Assembly (NCBI RefSeq): GCF_900631955.1
Contig: NZ_UZWD01000025.1
Span: 62,001-126,000 of the forward strand
Source: Devosia equisanguinis
GTDB taxonomy: Bacteria; Pseudomonadota; Alphaproteobacteria; Rhizobiales; Devosiaceae
Direction of reading: 5' to 3'
Length of the DNA: 64,000 nt
The position numbers were made by a program, and so were the translations under genes. Positions 4,153 to 24,734 of this stretch are shown in pieces (within the stretch, counting starts at the first letter, position 1; every line of letters starts with the position of its first letter). Under the pieces are notes generated by a model. That model did no database searches. It was not told the origin of the DNA and was given only the letters and a program-made list of their open reading frames with translations.

Positions 4153-5304
4153 ATGAACGTGAACCACATTCCTCAAGGTGTTCTGATCGGCCGCGCCAAG
4201 GTGCCCGGCATCGCCCACCCGGTCGTGGTGACGGTGCGCGACGAGCAACTCGTCGATATCACGGCGCCGGGCCTTGCCACGGTGCGCGACTACGCCGAAA
4301 GCGCCGACCCTGCCGGTCTCGTTTCCAAGGCCAAAGGCCGGGTGATCGGCGACGCGCAGGCAATCCTTGCCAATTCGGTTGCTGGCGCCAGCAAGGCCGA
4401 TCTGCCCACACTGCTGGCTCCCATCGACCTGCAGGCAATCAAGGCTTCAGGCGTGACCTTCGTGGTGTCGCTGCTGGAGCGGGTGATCGAGGAGCAGGCG
4501 CGGGGCGACAAATCGCGCGCCGATGCGCTGCGCACTGAAATCCTCGACCTCATCGGCACCGATCTAAGCCAGCTGGTGCCCGGCTCGGATGCGGCGATGA
4601 AGGTCAAGGCTGCGCTGATCGAAAAGGGCGTGTGGAGCCAGTATCTGGAAGTGGGCATTGGCCCGGACGCCGAGATTTTCACCAAGGGCCAGCCGATGAG
4701 TGCGGTTGGCTATGGCGCCGAGGTGGGTCTGCACCCGATTTCGAGCTGGAACAATCCCGAGCCGGAAGTGGCGCTCCTGGTCACCAGCGAGGGCAAGATC
4801 ATCGGTGCGACGCTGGGCAATGACGTCAACCTGCGCGACGTCGAAGGCAGGTCGGCCCTGCTGCTGGGCAAGGCCAAGGACAATAATGCATCCGCTTCGC
4901 TGGGGCCGTTCGTGCGTCTGTTCGACGGGGATTTCACGCTGGAGACAGTCGAGAACGCCGATATCAGCCTGCGCGTGGAAGGCCAGGACGGTTTCGTGCT
5001 CGAAGGCGGTTCCAACATGGCGCAGATTTCGCGCACTCCGGCCTCCCTGGTGGCGGCGACCATCGGCGATCATCACCAATATCCCGACGGGCTGGTGCTG
5101 TATCTCGGAACCATGTTCGCGCCGGTGAAGGATCGCGACGGCGCCGGCAAGGGTTTTACCCACAAGGTGGGCGACATTGTCTCGATTTCGACACCGAGCC
5201 TGGGTACGCTCTCGAACCGCGTCAACCTCTCGACCAAATGCCCGCCTTGGACTTATGGCACAAGCCATCTCCTGCGCGACCTCAGCCGCGCCGGGCTGCT
5301 CTGA
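4153..5304 (+). CDS. FAH-family dehydratase, XylX-like (2-keto-3-deoxy-pentonate dehydratase)
   Basis: A 383-residue protein of the fumarylacetoacetate hydrolase superfamily, in the longer subgroup that includes Caulobacter XylX. XylX dehydrates 2-keto-3-deoxy-D-xylonate (same compound as the arabinonate form) to 2-oxoglutarate semialdehyde. Subgroup features are GAEVGLHPISSWNNPEPE near residue 190, then GNDVNLRDVEGRS, and a C-terminal GDIVSISTPSLGTLSNRV. The next gene is a 2-oxoglutarate-semialdehyde dehydrogenase-like enzyme, the next step of the Weimberg and oxidative arabinose routes, which supports the call. The ATG at 4153 directly abuts GGAG. A GTG two codons later (4159) is better spaced and may be the real start. 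Upstream pathway genes are not in the window. Confidence 0.8.
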   Translation: MNVNHIPQGVLIGRAKVPGIAHPVVVTVRDEQLVDITAPGLATVRDYAESADPAGLVSKAKGRVIGDAQAILANSVAGASKADLPTLLAPIDLQAIKASGVTFVVSLLERVIEEQARGDKSRADALRTEILDLIGTDLSQLVPGSDAAMKVKAALIEKGVWSQYLEVGIGPDAEIFTKGQPMSAVGYGAEVGLHPISSWNNPEPEVALLVTSEGKIIGATLGNDVNLRDVEGRSALLLGKAKDNNASASLGPFVRLFDGDFTLETVENADISLRVEGQDGFVLEGGSNMAQISRTPASLVAATIGDHHQYPDGLVLYLGTMFAPVKDRDGAGKGFTHKVGDIVSISTPSLGTLSNRVNLSTKCPPWTYGTSHLLRDLSRAGLL

Positions 5305-20043: not shown

Positions 20044-20817
20044 CTAGCGCAGCAGCGGGCGCAGGTCGGCCTGAAGCTTGCGCATCAAGGGCAGGAAATG
20101 GGCGATCATGCGTGAGGTCGGGGCGCGGGCAGTCTGGGCGCCGATATTGAGGGCGGCGACCACCGCCCCACCGGCATTGAACAGCGGCACGGCGATGGAG
20201 CAGAGGCCCAGCTCCAGTTCCTGGTCGATCACCGCAAAGCCCTGGGCGGCGATGACTTCCAGCTCGGTGACAATATCAACGAGATTGGCCTTGGTGTGGG
20301 TCGTGTAGGCCACGATATCCGAGCGGGCGAGGATGGATTGTGCTTCGCCCGGAGGCAGTGCGGCCAGCAGGATGCGGCCCATCGAGGTGCAATAGGCCGG
20401 CAGCCGCGCGCCGGGCGCCAGATTGATCGACATGACGCGGCGGGTCGAGGCACGGGCGACATAGAGGGTATCGGTGCCGTCGAGCACCGCCGCCGAAGTG
20501 CTCTCATTGGTCGCGCGGGACAATTCTTCGAGAAAGGGCTGGATCAGCCGGGGCAGCGAGGTGGTCGCGAGATAGGAGTGGCCCAGATGCAGCACCCGCG
20601 GCGTCAGTTCGAAGAATTTGCCGTCATAGGTGGCATAACCGAGATGGGCGAGCGTAAGGAGGCACCGCCTCGCCGTGGCCCGCTCGAGCCCGGTGCGCTG
20701 CGCGACCTCGGTGATCGACATGCGCGCATGTTCCTCATCGAAGGATTCGATGACGGCGAGGCCCTTGATCAGGCCATTGATGAGGTCACCCTGGCGCATG
20801 CGTTCGCTTTTCGACAT
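20044..20817 (-). CDS. IclR-family regulator, PcaR/PcaU/PobR subgroup
   Basis: A 257-residue IclR-family regulator. The winged-helix N-terminus has GLAVIESFDEEHARMSITEVAQRTG split by the turn to LERATARRCLLTLAHLGY; these and FFELTPRVLHLGHSYL mark the PcaR/PcaU/PobR subgroup that senses aromatic intermediates of the beta-ketoadipate pathway. The C-terminal effector domain includes YCTSMGRILLAALPP and ELGLCSIAVPLFNAGG. No pca genes are in the window, so its targets are elsewhere or different. No convincing ribosome-binding site is seen at the ATG. Confidence 0.85.
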   Translation of the reverse strand: MSKSERMRQGDLINGLIKGLAVIESFDEEHARMSITEVAQRTGLERATARRCLLTLAHLGYATYDGKFFELTPRVLHLGHSYLATTSLPRLIQPFLEELSRATNESTSAAVLDGTDTLYVARASTRRVMSINLAPGARLPAYCTSMGRILLAALPPGEAQSILARSDIVAYTTHTKANLVDIVTELEVIAAQGFAVIDQELELGLCSIAVPLFNAGGAVVAALNIGAQTARAPTSRMIAHFLPLMRKLQADLRPLLR

Positions 20818-20963: not shown

Positions 20964-21039
20964 GGGCCTATAGCTCAATGGTTAGAGCCGACCGCTCATA
21001 ACGGTCTGGTTCCAGGTTCGAGTCCTGGTGGGCCCACCA
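20964..21039 (+). tRNA. tRNA-Ile (CAT anticodon, lysidine type)
   Basis: A complete 76-base cloverleaf: acceptor GGGCCTA/TGGGCCC, D-stem GCTC/GAGC, anticodon stem GACCG/CGGTC with loop CTCATAA, T-stem CCAGG/CCTGG with TTCGAGT, discriminator A and encoded CCA. The anticodon is CAT. The acceptor arm resembles the tRNA-Ile(GAT) type rather than elongator or initiator Met, so it is probably the minor tRNA-Ile whose C34 is changed to lysidine by TilS to read AUA. Met identity is the alternative. Confidence 0.9.
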
Positions 21040-21090: not shown

Positions 21091-21546
21091 TCAGTCGGCG
21101 GCGAGGGCCTGGCAGTCGACTTCGATGGCGGCGCCGAGCGGGATGGCCGGGACCACGAGGGTGGAACGGGTTGGCGGGCTGGTGGGGAAGACCTCGCGGA
21201 ACACTTCGTTCATCGGGGCGAAATCATCGACGCTGGTGACGAGGACCATGCACTTGACCGTCTGGTCGAGTGTGGTGCCGGCCTGTTCGAGAATGGTTTT
21301 CACATGGGCGAAGGCCTGGCGTGCTTCGGCCTGGATGCCGCCGGGGACCAGTTCTGACTTGCCGGGAACCGTGCCCAGCACGCCGCCGACATAGACCATG
21401 TCGCCGGCGCGGACAGCACCGGAATAGGGCAGGCCATCGACCACCGGCGATGGGTAGGCGATGCGCTCGCCGGCCTGCGCCAGAGGTGCGGCGGCGAAGG
21501 AAAGGGCAACAGCGGCAGCGAGGCCGAGCATCTTTAGTTTGTGCAT
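21091..21546 (-). CDS. RidA-family protein with signal peptide
   Basis: A 151-residue protein. Residues 1-26 (MHKLKMLGLAAAVALSF, cut after APLAQA) form a signal peptide, unusual because classic RidA is cytosolic. The rest is a full RidA/YjgF fold: YSGAVRAGDMVYVGGVLG, then a long helix QAFAHVKTILEQAGTTL, then ending in PPTRSTLVVPAIPLGAAIEVDCQAL with the active-site Arg. RidA enzymes hydrolyse reactive 2-imino acids to 2-oxo acids and ammonia. As third gene of the LodA-LodB run it may clear imines made by that oxidase in the periplasm. GAGGAG precedes the ATG. Confidence 0.85.
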   Translation of the reverse strand: MHKLKMLGLAAAVALSFAAAPLAQAGERIAYPSPVVDGLPYSGAVRAGDMVYVGGVLGTVPGKSELVPGGIQAEARQAFAHVKTILEQAGTTLDQTVKCMVLVTSVDDFAPMNEVFREVFPTSPPTRSTLVVPAIPLGAAIEVDCQALAAD

Positions 21547-21564
21547 GGTAGTCTCCTCATTGGG

Positions 21565-22692
21565 TCAGGTTGCAGTCCGGTCGGCCAGGTCGGCGTCATG
21601 CAGGCGCCGTTGCCAGAAGGGGTGGCTCGTAAAGCGCCGTTCGCGGGCATAGGTGCTGCGGCGTTCGCCGAGATAGTGTTCGACGCCGAGGCGGAGGCGG
21701 GTCGCATAGTCGGCTAGAGCGTCGTGGTCGCCGCCCAGTGCCTTTGCGGCAGCCTTTGCCGCTTCCACACCGGTCCAGAGCGCGGTGGTCATGCCATGGG
21801 CCGAGAGCGGGTCGAAGGAAATGGCGGCGTCGCCAACCGCCAGCCAGTCGGCACCGGCCGTCTGCTCAAGCCAGACTGTGCCGGCGCTGGCGAGCCCCGG
21901 AGGGCCGGACAGCGCGTAGCCGGCGCTTTCGACCCATTGGCAGATGTAGCGCGTGTCGGCCACGAGCGTCTGCCACAGGTCGGGGCCTTGGCCGATGCGG
22001 CGCGGCAAGAGGTCCGGATCGGAGTAGAAATTCAGCGCCAGCCGGCGATCAGCGAGGAGTGTGGCGTACCACCAGCCGCCCGAAACGGCCTCGATGATGG
22101 TGGCCGGGGTCGGGTCGATGTCGGTTTCGACCTGTGAGAGAAAGGCATAGGCGGCAACGAGGCGATCGACGCGCTTCTGTCGAACCTGCGCGCGGCCCGA
22201 CAGGCTTTTGCGGCCCGTGGCATCGATGACGAGATCGGCGGATAAAGTAGCGCCGCTGACGGTGGATAGAGTCCAGGCGCCGGGCTGGCGTTGCACGGTT
22301 AGGACAGTGTCGCGGAGGCGGGTGATTTCGGCAAACGCGGCTGTCTCGGCTATCAGGCTCGCTTCGAAGCGTGGCCGGTCGATGACATGACCGAGGCCGC
22401 CGGGCTGGGCGGCGGCATGGCGTTCGAGCAGGGCATCGCTGCCCCAGGACGTGTAGCTGGCCTGGGATTGCCGATGGGCGGGATCGGCGAGAAGAGGCGC
22501 GAGTCCCAATTCGTCGAGCAAAGGCAGCGCGGCCGCGGCGAGGCTTTCGCCCGGCTTGTCACCGACCGCAGTTTCGGGCGCGATCCATGCGACCTCAATG
22601 CCGAGCTGCGCCAACTTCAGAACAGCGGCGCAGCCGGCAATGCCGCCGCCGATAACGGCGACGGGCCAGTGGGATCGTGGCGGCGTTGGCAT
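21565..22692 (-). CDS. LodB-like FAD-dependent oxidoreductase (CTQ maturation factor)
   Basis: A 375-residue flavoprotein. The FAD motif is VAVIGGGIAGCAAVLKLAQLG near residues 13-33 (interrupted here only for length: GGGIAG is the core), GESLAAAALPLL follows, then LVIDATGRKSLSG and WLAVGDAAISFDPLSAHGM. The last pattern is shared with tryptophan halogenases and with LodB/GoxB, flavoproteins that install the cysteine tryptophylquinone cofactor in LodA-type oxidases. It lies 17 bases behind a LodA-like gene, so that role is the best call. The start at 22692 is chosen because upstream codons overlap lodA. No export signal is seen, consistent with cytoplasmic maturation before Tat export. Confidence 0.82.
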   Translation of the reverse strand: MPTPPRSHWPVAVIGGGIAGCAAVLKLAQLGIEVAWIAPETAVGDKPGESLAAAALPLLDELGLAPLLADPAHRQSQASYTSWGSDALLERHAAAQPGGLGHVIDRPRFEASLIAETAAFAEITRLRDTVLTVQRQPGAWTLSTVSGATLSADLVIDATGRKSLSGRAQVRQKRVDRLVAAYAFLSQVETDIDPTPATIIEAVSGGWWYATLLADRRLALNFYSDPDLLPRRIGQGPDLWQTLVADTRYICQWVESAGYALSGPPGLASAGTVWLEQTAGADWLAVGDAAISFDPLSAHGMTTALWTGVEAAKAAAKALGGDHDALADYATRLRLGVEHYLGERRSTYARERRFTSHPFWQRRLHDADLADRTAT

Positions 22693-22709
22693 GGTCGCGA
22701 TGCCGCGAG

Positions 22710-24734
22710 TCAGCCCATGTCGCCGTCGTCGGCGACCCAATCAAAACGCTGCTCCATAGAGCCGCGACCGACTTCCACGAACAGCTGTTGCGGGATGGCT
22801 TCGGGGCGGTCCGGATCGGTCGGGCCGGGGCGCTGCACCACGAAGCCCATCTGTTGCCAGACGGCGATCATGTTGCGGATGCCGTCCCAATAGCTGGCAT
22901 TGGCGTGATAGCCGATGCCCGGCACGCCGCGGGCCCACCAGACGCGGTTTTCGAAGAATTTCACCCGCTGCTCGGCGCTGAGATCGGTGCGCATCAGCTG
23001 GTTGTAGTGCTCCTCGGGCAGCACATCGACCGGCAGCAGGGCCGGCCACCAGACCGGCACCGGGAAATCGGTCTGCATGGCGACGCGCTGGCAGCTGAAG
23101 GCGTCGGGTTGCCAGGGCAGACCCATCCAGCGGGTGAGATCGCCGGCCATTTGCGGGCCGATCGGGGCGTCCTCACCGGTCGTGGCGTTGGTGAAATCCA
23201 GGATGCGGCCGACATTCTGCACCAGCGAGGCGCGATTGCCACGGGCGATGCGGAAGGCTTCGGCCTCGGGGTCGGCAGCACGGGCATAGAGCGCGGGCAG
23301 GCGCAGATAGTAGGAGAGCTCGACGCCGGGATGGAAGGCGCCCCCGGAGCAGGGCTCGAGCGCTGCTTCGGTCAGGGCATGCGGGCGCTGCTCGACCGGC
23401 AGCTGATCAAGGTCGGTGACCTGGTCGAGCGCCGCATCGGCAAAGTCGTTGTCGAAGGCACCTTCTGCCCAGAGGCGCAGGCGTTCATATTGCAGTTTCG
23501 GGAACTGGAACCACTGCAGCGGGCTGCCATTGTGGTCGACGCCGTCGCCCGGCATGAGCGGGATCTTGAAGTGTTCTTCCTTATAGGCGTTGGGGCCCAT
23601 ATTGTAGGGGTCGCGGAAGGCAGAAAACACCTTTTGGCGGAAGGCCTTGTTGGCTTCGCTGGGGTCGGCGAGCTGGGCCAGATAGGCCTCGCTCGAGAAG
23701 TCGCCGACATCCAGCCAGCCCTGGCGCAGATTGGAAGCCGCGGACACCCATTCCATCAGTGCCAGGCGCCGGAAGGTGGGATAGATGTGCTGGCGGAAAG
23801 AGAGTGGCGTGGCCGGCGGCTCGACCCACTTCTGCTCCCAGTTCATGTTCTCGATCACGTCGTAAAGCGTGCTGATCGAGGGGATTTCCGGGGCGAAATC
23901 GGGGCCGACACAGGCGATCCAGGCGCCGTCGGCATCGAGGACCTGACCGTCGGGCAGGGTGACCTTGGCGTCGACCGGGCCATCGCACCAGTCGTCGTGC
24001 CAGCCGTCATTGTCGGCAAAATTGGTGATGGCGGTGCCGCGCGGCGAGCGGGAGATACCATCGGCGGGAACCACCAGCAGGCGGCCGTCGGCATCGGTGC
24101 GCACCTGGCCCAGGCCGACATCGACGCTGTCCCAGAAGCGGCCCTTCATGGCATAGGCCTCGTCCTCGCCACTCCAGTTGACCTCGGTGCCTGAGATCGT
24201 CACCGCGCCGGGATCGATGACCAGCATCTTTTCGCGCTGCTCATTGCTGGCGAAATACTGATTGCGCATGCGGGTCGGCATGCCGGGCGCATTGGCGCCG
24301 TTGTCGTGGGCGTTGACGAAGCCGTACCAGGCGGCCTTGGTGTTGGCGACATGGACGCGCCACTCGATCTTGGCATCGGCAGCGGTCAGTTCCTTGATCA
24401 CCCGGCCCTCGGCGTCGAAGGCAAAAACGCGGAAGCGCTGCACCTGCTTCTTGATCAGCGAACTGCCATCCTTGAAACCGCCTTCGGGATTGGCGGGGAC
24501 GCCGGGCAGTTCGGGGGCGTAAAACCATTTCTGGCTGCCTCCGACGCGGCTGATGCCGAGGGCGGGATAGATGCCGACACGGGCGATGGCGGCGCCTTCG
24601 GACGCGGCTTCGATCGCTGGCGTCGCTGCGACGGCCAGCTTGGGGACGAAGGGCAGGCCGAAAGCCGCCATGCCCGTTACCCCGGCAATGCCCGCCAGGA
24701 AATCGCGCCGCCGAATCGTCTTGGTATCAACCAT
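22710..24734 (-). CDS. Tat-exported LodA/GoxA-family CTQ-dependent oxidase
   Basis: A 674-residue protein of the LodA family (L-lysine 6-oxidase, glycine oxidase GoxA), quinoprotein oxidases producing hydrogen peroxide, ammonia and an aldehyde or oxo acid. It has a twin-arginine signal (RRRDFLAG, then a hydrophobic stretch to AVAA). Family parts include VGIYPALGISRVGGS, IDPGAVTISG, WIACVGPDFAPEI, the Cys462 region EPCSGGAFHPGVEL and the Trp541 region GLPWQPDAFSC, which I take as the crosslinked Cys and Trp. A GTG-start extension (24755) is rejected because GAGGAGGG lies just before the ATG at 24734. LodB-like and RidA-like genes follow. Confidence 0.85.
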   Translation of the reverse strand: MVDTKTIRRRDFLAGIAGVTGMAAFGLPFVPKLAVAATPAIEAASEGAAIARVGIYPALGISRVGGSQKWFYAPELPGVPANPEGGFKDGSSLIKKQVQRFRVFAFDAEGRVIKELTAADAKIEWRVHVANTKAAWYGFVNAHDNGANAPGMPTRMRNQYFASNEQREKMLVIDPGAVTISGTEVNWSGEDEAYAMKGRFWDSVDVGLGQVRTDADGRLLVVPADGISRSPRGTAITNFADNDGWHDDWCDGPVDAKVTLPDGQVLDADGAWIACVGPDFAPEIPSISTLYDVIENMNWEQKWVEPPATPLSFRQHIYPTFRRLALMEWVSAASNLRQGWLDVGDFSSEAYLAQLADPSEANKAFRQKVFSAFRDPYNMGPNAYKEEHFKIPLMPGDGVDHNGSPLQWFQFPKLQYERLRLWAEGAFDNDFADAALDQVTDLDQLPVEQRPHALTEAALEPCSGGAFHPGVELSYYLRLPALYARAADPEAEAFRIARGNRASLVQNVGRILDFTNATTGEDAPIGPQMAGDLTRWMGLPWQPDAFSCQRVAMQTDFPVPVWWPALLPVDVLPEEHYNQLMRTDLSAEQRVKFFENRVWWARGVPGIGYHANASYWDGIRNMIAVWQQMGFVVQRPGPTDPDRPEAIPQQLFVEVGRGSMEQRFDWVADDGDMG

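Follow-up and report, generated by a model that had tools for sequence, protein, structure and literature searches.

The closest described counterpart of the locus examined here is the goxAB pair of Marinomonas mediterranea (PMC3948610; group II of the LodA-like proteins in PMC4417212). Its oxidase and maturase share their families, gene order and twin-arginine signal with two genes that we find in a 64,000-nucleotide stretch of Devosia equisanguinis (contig NZ_UZWD01000025.1, positions 62,001 to 126,000; the whole stretch is hereafter called the window), where they are followed by a third gene, ridA, coding for a Rid-family protein with a putative signal peptide. The Marinomonas GoxA, which carries the twin-arginine signal, is reported from culture supernatants (PMC3948610), and group II of the LodA-like proteins is described as carrying a twin-arginine motif, save for three non-clustering members (PMC4417212). 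The association of an enzyme dependent on cysteine tryptophylquinone (CTQ) with a dedicated flavoprotein is likewise known from lodAB of Marinomonas and from QhpG with quinohemoprotein amine dehydrogenase (PMC7876137), systems that differ from the window locus in that the accessible text of that paper mentions no Rid partner.

Oxidases accompanied by a Rid protein have also been described. In Gluconacetobacter diazotrophicus, the lao-cccA-ridA genes likewise place an amino acid oxidase with a Tat (twin-arginine translocation) signal beside ridA, their expression is lowered jointly in a mutant, and a role on imines is proposed for RidA (PMC5053998). This cluster differs from the gox trio in comprising a flavin adenine dinucleotide (FAD) oxidase and a cytochrome c, with neither a quinone nor a maturase. 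The periplasmic L-amino acid oxidase of Chlamydomonas with its RidA-like Mbeta, known to us through its citation in PMC5053998, similarly has an exported oxidase and a Rid protein sharing one compartment, the differences being that it is eukaryotic and is taken to be a flavoenzyme. Rid genes also cluster with FAD amine oxidase genes, and RidA has been demonstrated to hydrolyse the imines that a flavin amino acid oxidase produces (Niehaus 2015, PMC4433059); these systems again rely on flavoenzymes, and the main text of that paper contains neither "periplasm" nor "signal peptide". The term "RidA" is absent from the main texts of PMC3948610 and PMC4417212, and a literature search, with most subscription papers outside its reach, did not find goxA or lodA joined with ridA among the papers listed. 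The initial annotation of the window had stated that no described system was known to join all three components; we found no report of the trio either, whereas the Gluconacetobacter cluster (PMC5053998) is an earlier example of a Tat-signal oxidase next to RidA.

In the window, the three genes lie on the minus strand in the transcription order goxA-goxB-ridA, with gaps of exactly 17 bp and 18 bp (to the ATG) and a GAGGAG sequence 5' of ridA, and they are presumably co-transcribed. A Tat-signal oxidase, a flavoprotein and a signal-peptide RidA at this place and with these spacings had been noted in the initial annotation, which the coordinates and family matches bear out. The features concerned are the following.

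22710..24734, minus strand: goxA, predicted CTQ-dependent glycine oxidase with a Tat-type signal, 674 aa (NF038173, LodA_N, LodA_C; PDB relatives 6byw and others)
24627..24734, minus strand: Tat-type signal of GoxA, RRRDFL at residues 8-13 and then a hydrophobic stretch, cleavage placed by eye near residue 36
23091..23093, minus strand: codon of Cys548, the predicted CTQ cysteine (D544-x3-C548), aligned with PlGoxA and conserved in 28/28 rows
23046..23048, minus strand: codon of Trp563, the predicted CTQ tryptophan (second W of PVWWPA), conserved in 28/28 rows
21565..22692, minus strand: goxB, 375 aa, predicted flavoprotein that matures the CTQ cofactor (NF038174), with no signal peptide visible by eye
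21091..21546, minus strand: ridA, Rid-family protein with a predicted signal peptide, 151 aa (PF01042; TIGR00004 below cut-off)
21472..21546, minus strand: predicted Sec-type signal peptide of RidA, residues 1-25, starting MHKLKMLGLAAAVALSFAAAPLAQA, cleavage placed by eye between AQA and GE
21166..21168, minus strand: codon of Arg127, aligned with RidA Arg105 (linked to imine deaminase activity) and with UK114

Judged by their sequences, the first two genes are goxA and goxB, the already known pair of a CTQ glycine oxidase and its maturase, and the new part of the locus is the third gene, ridA, placed after goxAB. The trio is probably the known gox operon extended by a third, probably exported part, which is conserved in one clade. 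The oxidase matches the NCBIfam GoxA model NF038173 with 1165 bits (cut-off 750) as well as both Pfam domains LodA_N and LodA_C, and GoxB matches NF038174 with 465.7 bits (cut-off 400). The score on the LodA lysine 6-oxidase model NF038172 is 170.4 bits, far under the cut-off of 600, which sets the oxidase apart from lodAB; with the GoxA score far above its own cut-off, a new LodA-type specificity is rejected. The initial annotation described a LodA-like and LodB-like pair without assigning its type; the pair is GoxA and GoxB, for which the Tat signal and the quinone had been described before.

Residues C548, W563, D544, F239, H468, Y609 and H610 of the window oxidase align with the CTQ, catalytic and substrate positions of PlGoxA. 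The window and 9/9 rows of the clade described below retain the residues matching PlGoxA F316, H583, D678, Y766 and H767 and also those of the CTQ Cys and Trp; the roles of F316, H583, Y766, H767 and the CTQ pair are those which we take them to have in PlGoxA. Asp678 is named in PMC7876137. The first W of the PVWWPA motif is replaced by F in three distant LodA-like rows. Glycine is the predicted substrate of GoxA. At its N-terminus, RRRDFL at residue 8 provides the twin-arginine motif that characterizes group II (PMC4417212); RRxFL is present in 24 of the 25 GoxA loci that we compared, and KRDFL in L007. GoxA would be exported folded via Tat. A GoxA with a Tat signal beside GoxB is not new, since both the group II survey (PMC4417212) and the Marinomonas enzyme (PMC3948610) describe it.

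RidA belongs to the Rid family, with a PF01042 match of 86.1 bits for a gathering cut-off of 27.3. On the model of the Rid detoxifying hydrolases, TIGR00004, it scores 91.7 bits against a cut-off of 106.25, so "RidA" is used here as a family label, following the NCBI naming of the Martelella gene; the same cut-off is missed by the Lamprobacter RidA (98.8) and by a 122-aa part of the Martelella RidA (91.9). Arg127, N113, E142, G55 and P125 are invariant across 36 Rid sequences of our choosing (among those left out, L071 is without the Asn and the Arg, and L146 without the Asn). The equivalent of RidA Arg105 is therefore present in the window protein and missing from L071, a paralog in the same genome, and the Rid protein of Methylobacterium bullatum keeps the equivalents of Arg127, Asn113 and Glu142. 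An arginine of the Arg105 type is reported to mark deaminase-competent Rid proteins (PMC5619798), and by this criterion the invariance of Arg127, Asn113 and Glu142 makes it likely that the window RidA is competent as an imine deaminase. Among the ten PF01042 copies of the window genome, a signal-like start is seen by eye only in this RidA (the starts of L073 and L074 are uncertain), and signal-like starts also occur in the other seven linked copies of its subfamily. Signal peptides were called with a hydrophobicity rule and by visual inspection; they suggest that RidA is exported via Sec.

We compared 25 distinct goxAB loci, each above the GoxA cut-off, which form a non-random sample gathered by three routes (one GTDB contig scan, genome-set samples and a plasmid collection). 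L005/L098, L002/L051 and L009/L093 each count as one locus, and the near-identical stretches of Martelella NC18 and NC20 were counted once. Rid genes were sought with a profile built from the ten copies of the window genome, at an E value of 0.001. In 9/25 loci goxB is immediately followed, in the same orientation, by an exported-type Rid gene, namely in the window, Lamprobacter (L001), Roseibium hamelinense (L002), Roseibium sediminicola (L009), Thalassobaculum litoreum (L003), strain BAL199 (L004), G416 (L052), the Martelella plasmids (L106/L108) and M. bullatum (L107). Chance adjacency of ridA and goxAB is rejected on this recurrence in the same slot and on the small number of Rid copies, ten, in the window genome. 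No Rid gene was found by the profile at seven more distant LodA-like loci (L099-L105), and a search of 61 genomes of one order added no GoxA above the cut-off to the five known before.

A GoxA tree of 28 rows, with long-branch warnings on the outer rows, places eight of the Rid-bearing loci in one clade of nine (support 100/99), which includes Lamprobacter (Chromatiaceae) among alphaproteobacteria as well as the Martelella plasmids. The ninth member, L005, is a Devosia metagenome-assembled genome, sister of the window, without ridA; no remnant of the gene was found in the 238 bp before the next open reading frame (best E 0.44), and L005 has either lost ridA or never had it. The eight linked RidAs, with one unlinked copy from genome G1083, form in turn a single clade (support 97/98), and the window-type RidA, kept in 8/9 clade members, has 53-69% identity to the window protein. 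Mapped onto the GoxA tree, the Rid label requires 3 changes, compared with 7.8 when labels are shuffled (0/500 as low), a control which shows only that the label follows descent.

Six GoxA residues, V79, D255, W299, D513, T518 and W599, do not vary within the nine-row clade, and none of the 16 other rows of the group has them. They are possible candidates for contacts with RidA, or might reflect descent only. They bear on the main alternative explanation, in which the exported GoxA has RidA as a subunit or stabilising partner, like Mbeta of the periplasmic Chlamydomonas amino acid oxidase (cited in PMC5053998). The confinement of the pairing mostly to one GoxA clade and the possible contact sites agree with such a complex, but L005 keeps all six residues without RidA, clade-specific residues arise through descent alone, and the catalytic residues retained by RidA would be superfluous for a mere subunit. 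We consider a purely structural role unlikely.

The ninth Rid-bearing locus, that of M. bullatum, stands apart. Its Rid protein, encoded 16 bp after goxB, has its own signal-like start and shares 31% identity with the window RidA in the aligned part; it lacks the cysteine pair discussed below, and the accompanying GoxA is placed elsewhere in the tree, outside the main clade. This distant Rid type, the missing cysteines and the position of the GoxA make the M. bullatum gene look like a second, separate recruitment into the same slot. That two types of periplasmic Rid protein were recruited separately to the product side of CTQ glycine oxidases is a possible reading of these data, though still a doubtful one.

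The main RidA subfamily is found almost only at goxA in the collections searched. Among plasmids, 590 records matched in a Rid search, of which two reach 60% identity, both in gox operons, and the next matches, among the best 40 of the 590, do not exceed 43%. Class-wide, 195 of 385 genomes matched; among the matches listed, the best outside the window's own genome has 46% identity and none reaches 50%. In G1083, a gox-type RidA with a signal-like start (L154, contig C105, 6355-6891, minus strand; 64-65% identical) has no goxA or goxB within 14 kb, and the goxAB genes of this genome sit on another contig, without ridA.

The gox locus is probably a moving cassette, because GoxA is scattered (2/75 genomes of the window's genus), occurs on Martelella plasmids carrying gox-ridA, which are typed mobilizable, and, in the window and L052, lies near transfer RNA (tRNA) genes. 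Such genes follow soon after ridA at both of these RidA-positive loci, at 4648-4722 (Glu) in L052 and in the window as given here:

20964..21039, plus strand: tRNA-Met (CAT), 51 bp beyond the ridA stop, adjoining the cassette and outside the operon

The two tRNA genes next to ridA fit an insertion of the cassette near tRNA genes. One might then suppose that ridA is a passenger of a horizontally moving goxAB cassette, with no role for GoxA, and the sporadic occurrence, the mobilizable plasmids, the adjoining tRNA genes and the missing ridA of L005 all suit this view. We nevertheless find it quite improbable, given that the gene persists in eight of the nine clade members with catalytic residues and signals intact at 53-69% identity, that M. 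bullatum has a different exported-type Rid at this position, and that G1083, a goxA genome, retains an unlinked copy.

We favour a three-gene variant of the gox operon whose RidA works for GoxA in the periplasm and most likely hydrolyses imine or Schiff-base adducts of the GoxA product, and we give this reading a probability of roughly 0.55. In this model, GoxB would stay in the cytoplasm and complete the CTQ of GoxA before export, folded GoxA would leave by Tat, and RidA would leave by Sec and fold in the periplasm. Once outside the cytoplasm, GoxA would oxidise glycine, yielding glyoxylate, ammonia and H2O2 (hydrogen peroxide), and RidA might act on iminoacetate, on Schiff bases that glyoxylate forms with ammonia, glycine or further amines, or on imine leaking from GoxA. 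The partnership of RidA and GoxA is what the gene arrangement suggests, whereas the substrate of RidA proposed here is conjecture.

Several points weigh against this reading. Tryptophylquinone oxidases follow a transamination-like route, in which the nitrogen is held on the cofactor and the product Schiff base is hydrolysed on the enzyme; they release the carbon product as glyoxylate or an aldehyde and the nitrogen as ammonia, and a free imine is not expected. The imine detoxification assumed in the initial annotation does not follow from this chemistry, flavin oxidases being the enzymes that shed imines, and for the same reason the likeliest targets of RidA would be iminoacetate, glyoxylate-amine adducts formed later, or leaked imine. 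The initial annotation had also set as a check that a Rid gene should occur in most homologous loci, and it is absent after goxB, in the stretches read, from 16 of the 25 goxAB loci (L005, L006, L007, L008, whose sequence ends ~1.3 kb after goxB, L010, L048, L049, L050, L053-L055, L092 and L094-L097). The complete exported module that it proposed is thus recurrent, with export signals, in eight of nine members of one clade and in one separate case, and does not hold as a general feature. The nearest sampled GoxA, that of the Devosia metagenome-assembled genome (L005/L098, 86% identical), is without ridA, which indicates that RidA is dispensable for GoxA, and a search of 12 goxA genomes without an operon ridA found no subfamily member anywhere in 11 of them (best match at 38% identity). 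In M. bullatum, the GoxB score lies under the cut-off (244 vs 400 bits) and GoxA has Leu at the Tyr766 position, so this case may differ. Exported-type Rid proteins also stand beside unrelated-looking genes in other alphaproteobacteria. Finally, Marinomonas goxAB, whose activity has been demonstrated, is described as a two-gene unit with oppositely oriented neighbours and no ridA (PMC3948610).

The expected release of H2O2 by GoxA invites another explanation, namely that RidA is a chaperone shielding exported proteins from oxidants around the oxidase. Escherichia coli RidA indeed turns into a holdase when chlorinated by hypochlorous acid (HOCl), but H2O2 did not switch it, and the activation proceeds without cysteines (PMC7464077). 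Because the switch is reported as HOCl-specific in that paper, an H2O2-activated chaperone is disfavoured, and we regard this function as very improbable. It could also be that the substrate of GoxA in this clade is a different small amine or amino acid, that its imine escapes, and that RidA is matched to that product. The restriction of most Rid pairings to one clade and the clade-specific GoxA residues would be in line with such a shift, and imine specificity is reported to vary among Rid subfamilies (PMC5619798); but the clade shows no change at the PlGoxA active-site positions compared, and the GoxA score is far above its cut-off, which leaves this idea only a slim chance. Of the functions considered, we retain the hydrolysis of imine or Schiff-base adducts of the GoxA product.

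The surroundings of the operon comprise several other genes. Adjoining goxA in the opposite orientation, the gene at 24971-25951 matches the N-acetyl-D-Glu racemase DgcA model with 448 bits (cut-off 400), and beyond it lie an RpiR-type regulator and then an SBP_bac_5 solute-binding protein. A regulator of the IclR/PcaR type is found near gox or the unlinked ridA at four loci (window 20047-20817; L154 9141-9788; L050 9589-10251; L092 4429-5091). These regulators are not all one ortholog, with 30-38% identity to that of the window.

Two cysteines of the window RidA, Cys99 and Cys145, may link the protein to a larger set of Rid proteins. Among the sequences read, the pair is present in 20/21 Rid proteins with a signal, compared with 6/31 without one, the exception being M. 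bullatum, which has neither Cys. These counts are hand-corrected, because the hydrophobicity rule missed the signal of L001 (TTG start), and eight sources without a match as well as identical copies were dropped from the set. On the rule-based counts (19 exported with the pair; 7 non-exported with it and 25 without), Fisher's p is 1.7e-8, which is no real probability since the sequences are related. The pair may form a disulphide in this possible periplasmic Rid class; an AlphaFold model of RidA, made from 6 sequences, has a mean pLDDT (predicted local distance difference test score) of 47.5, too low to place Cys99 relative to Cys145.

Rid genes with signal peptides are common in several alphaproteobacteria, where we observe them at L158, L159, L160, L162 and L164-L170. 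An exported RidA as a general mark of oxidase operons was rejected, as no oxidase partner was recognised by eye among some neighbouring proteins inspected at 9/11 of these loci (L158-L160, L164, L166-L170). The neighbours that could be assigned in this way include, among other genes, one for an M28-like peptidase as well as phosphofructokinase-like and PstB-like ones. These occurrences provide hints of a wider, undescribed and possibly disulphide-stabilised class of exported Rid proteins.

Rid proteins have been studied mostly as cytoplasmic guards of enzymes dependent on pyridoxal phosphate (PLP). The conserved association of an exported-type Rid protein with a quinoprotein oxidase makes two questions directly testable: whether imines or reactive glyoxylate adducts escape from CTQ glycine oxidases, and which function a Rid protein has in the periplasm. 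If the separate recruitment of two Rid types is true, it would mean that a quinoprotein oxidase does give rise, outside the cytoplasm, to harmful imine or Schiff-base species; it would also provide a first function for the wider class of exported Rid proteins.

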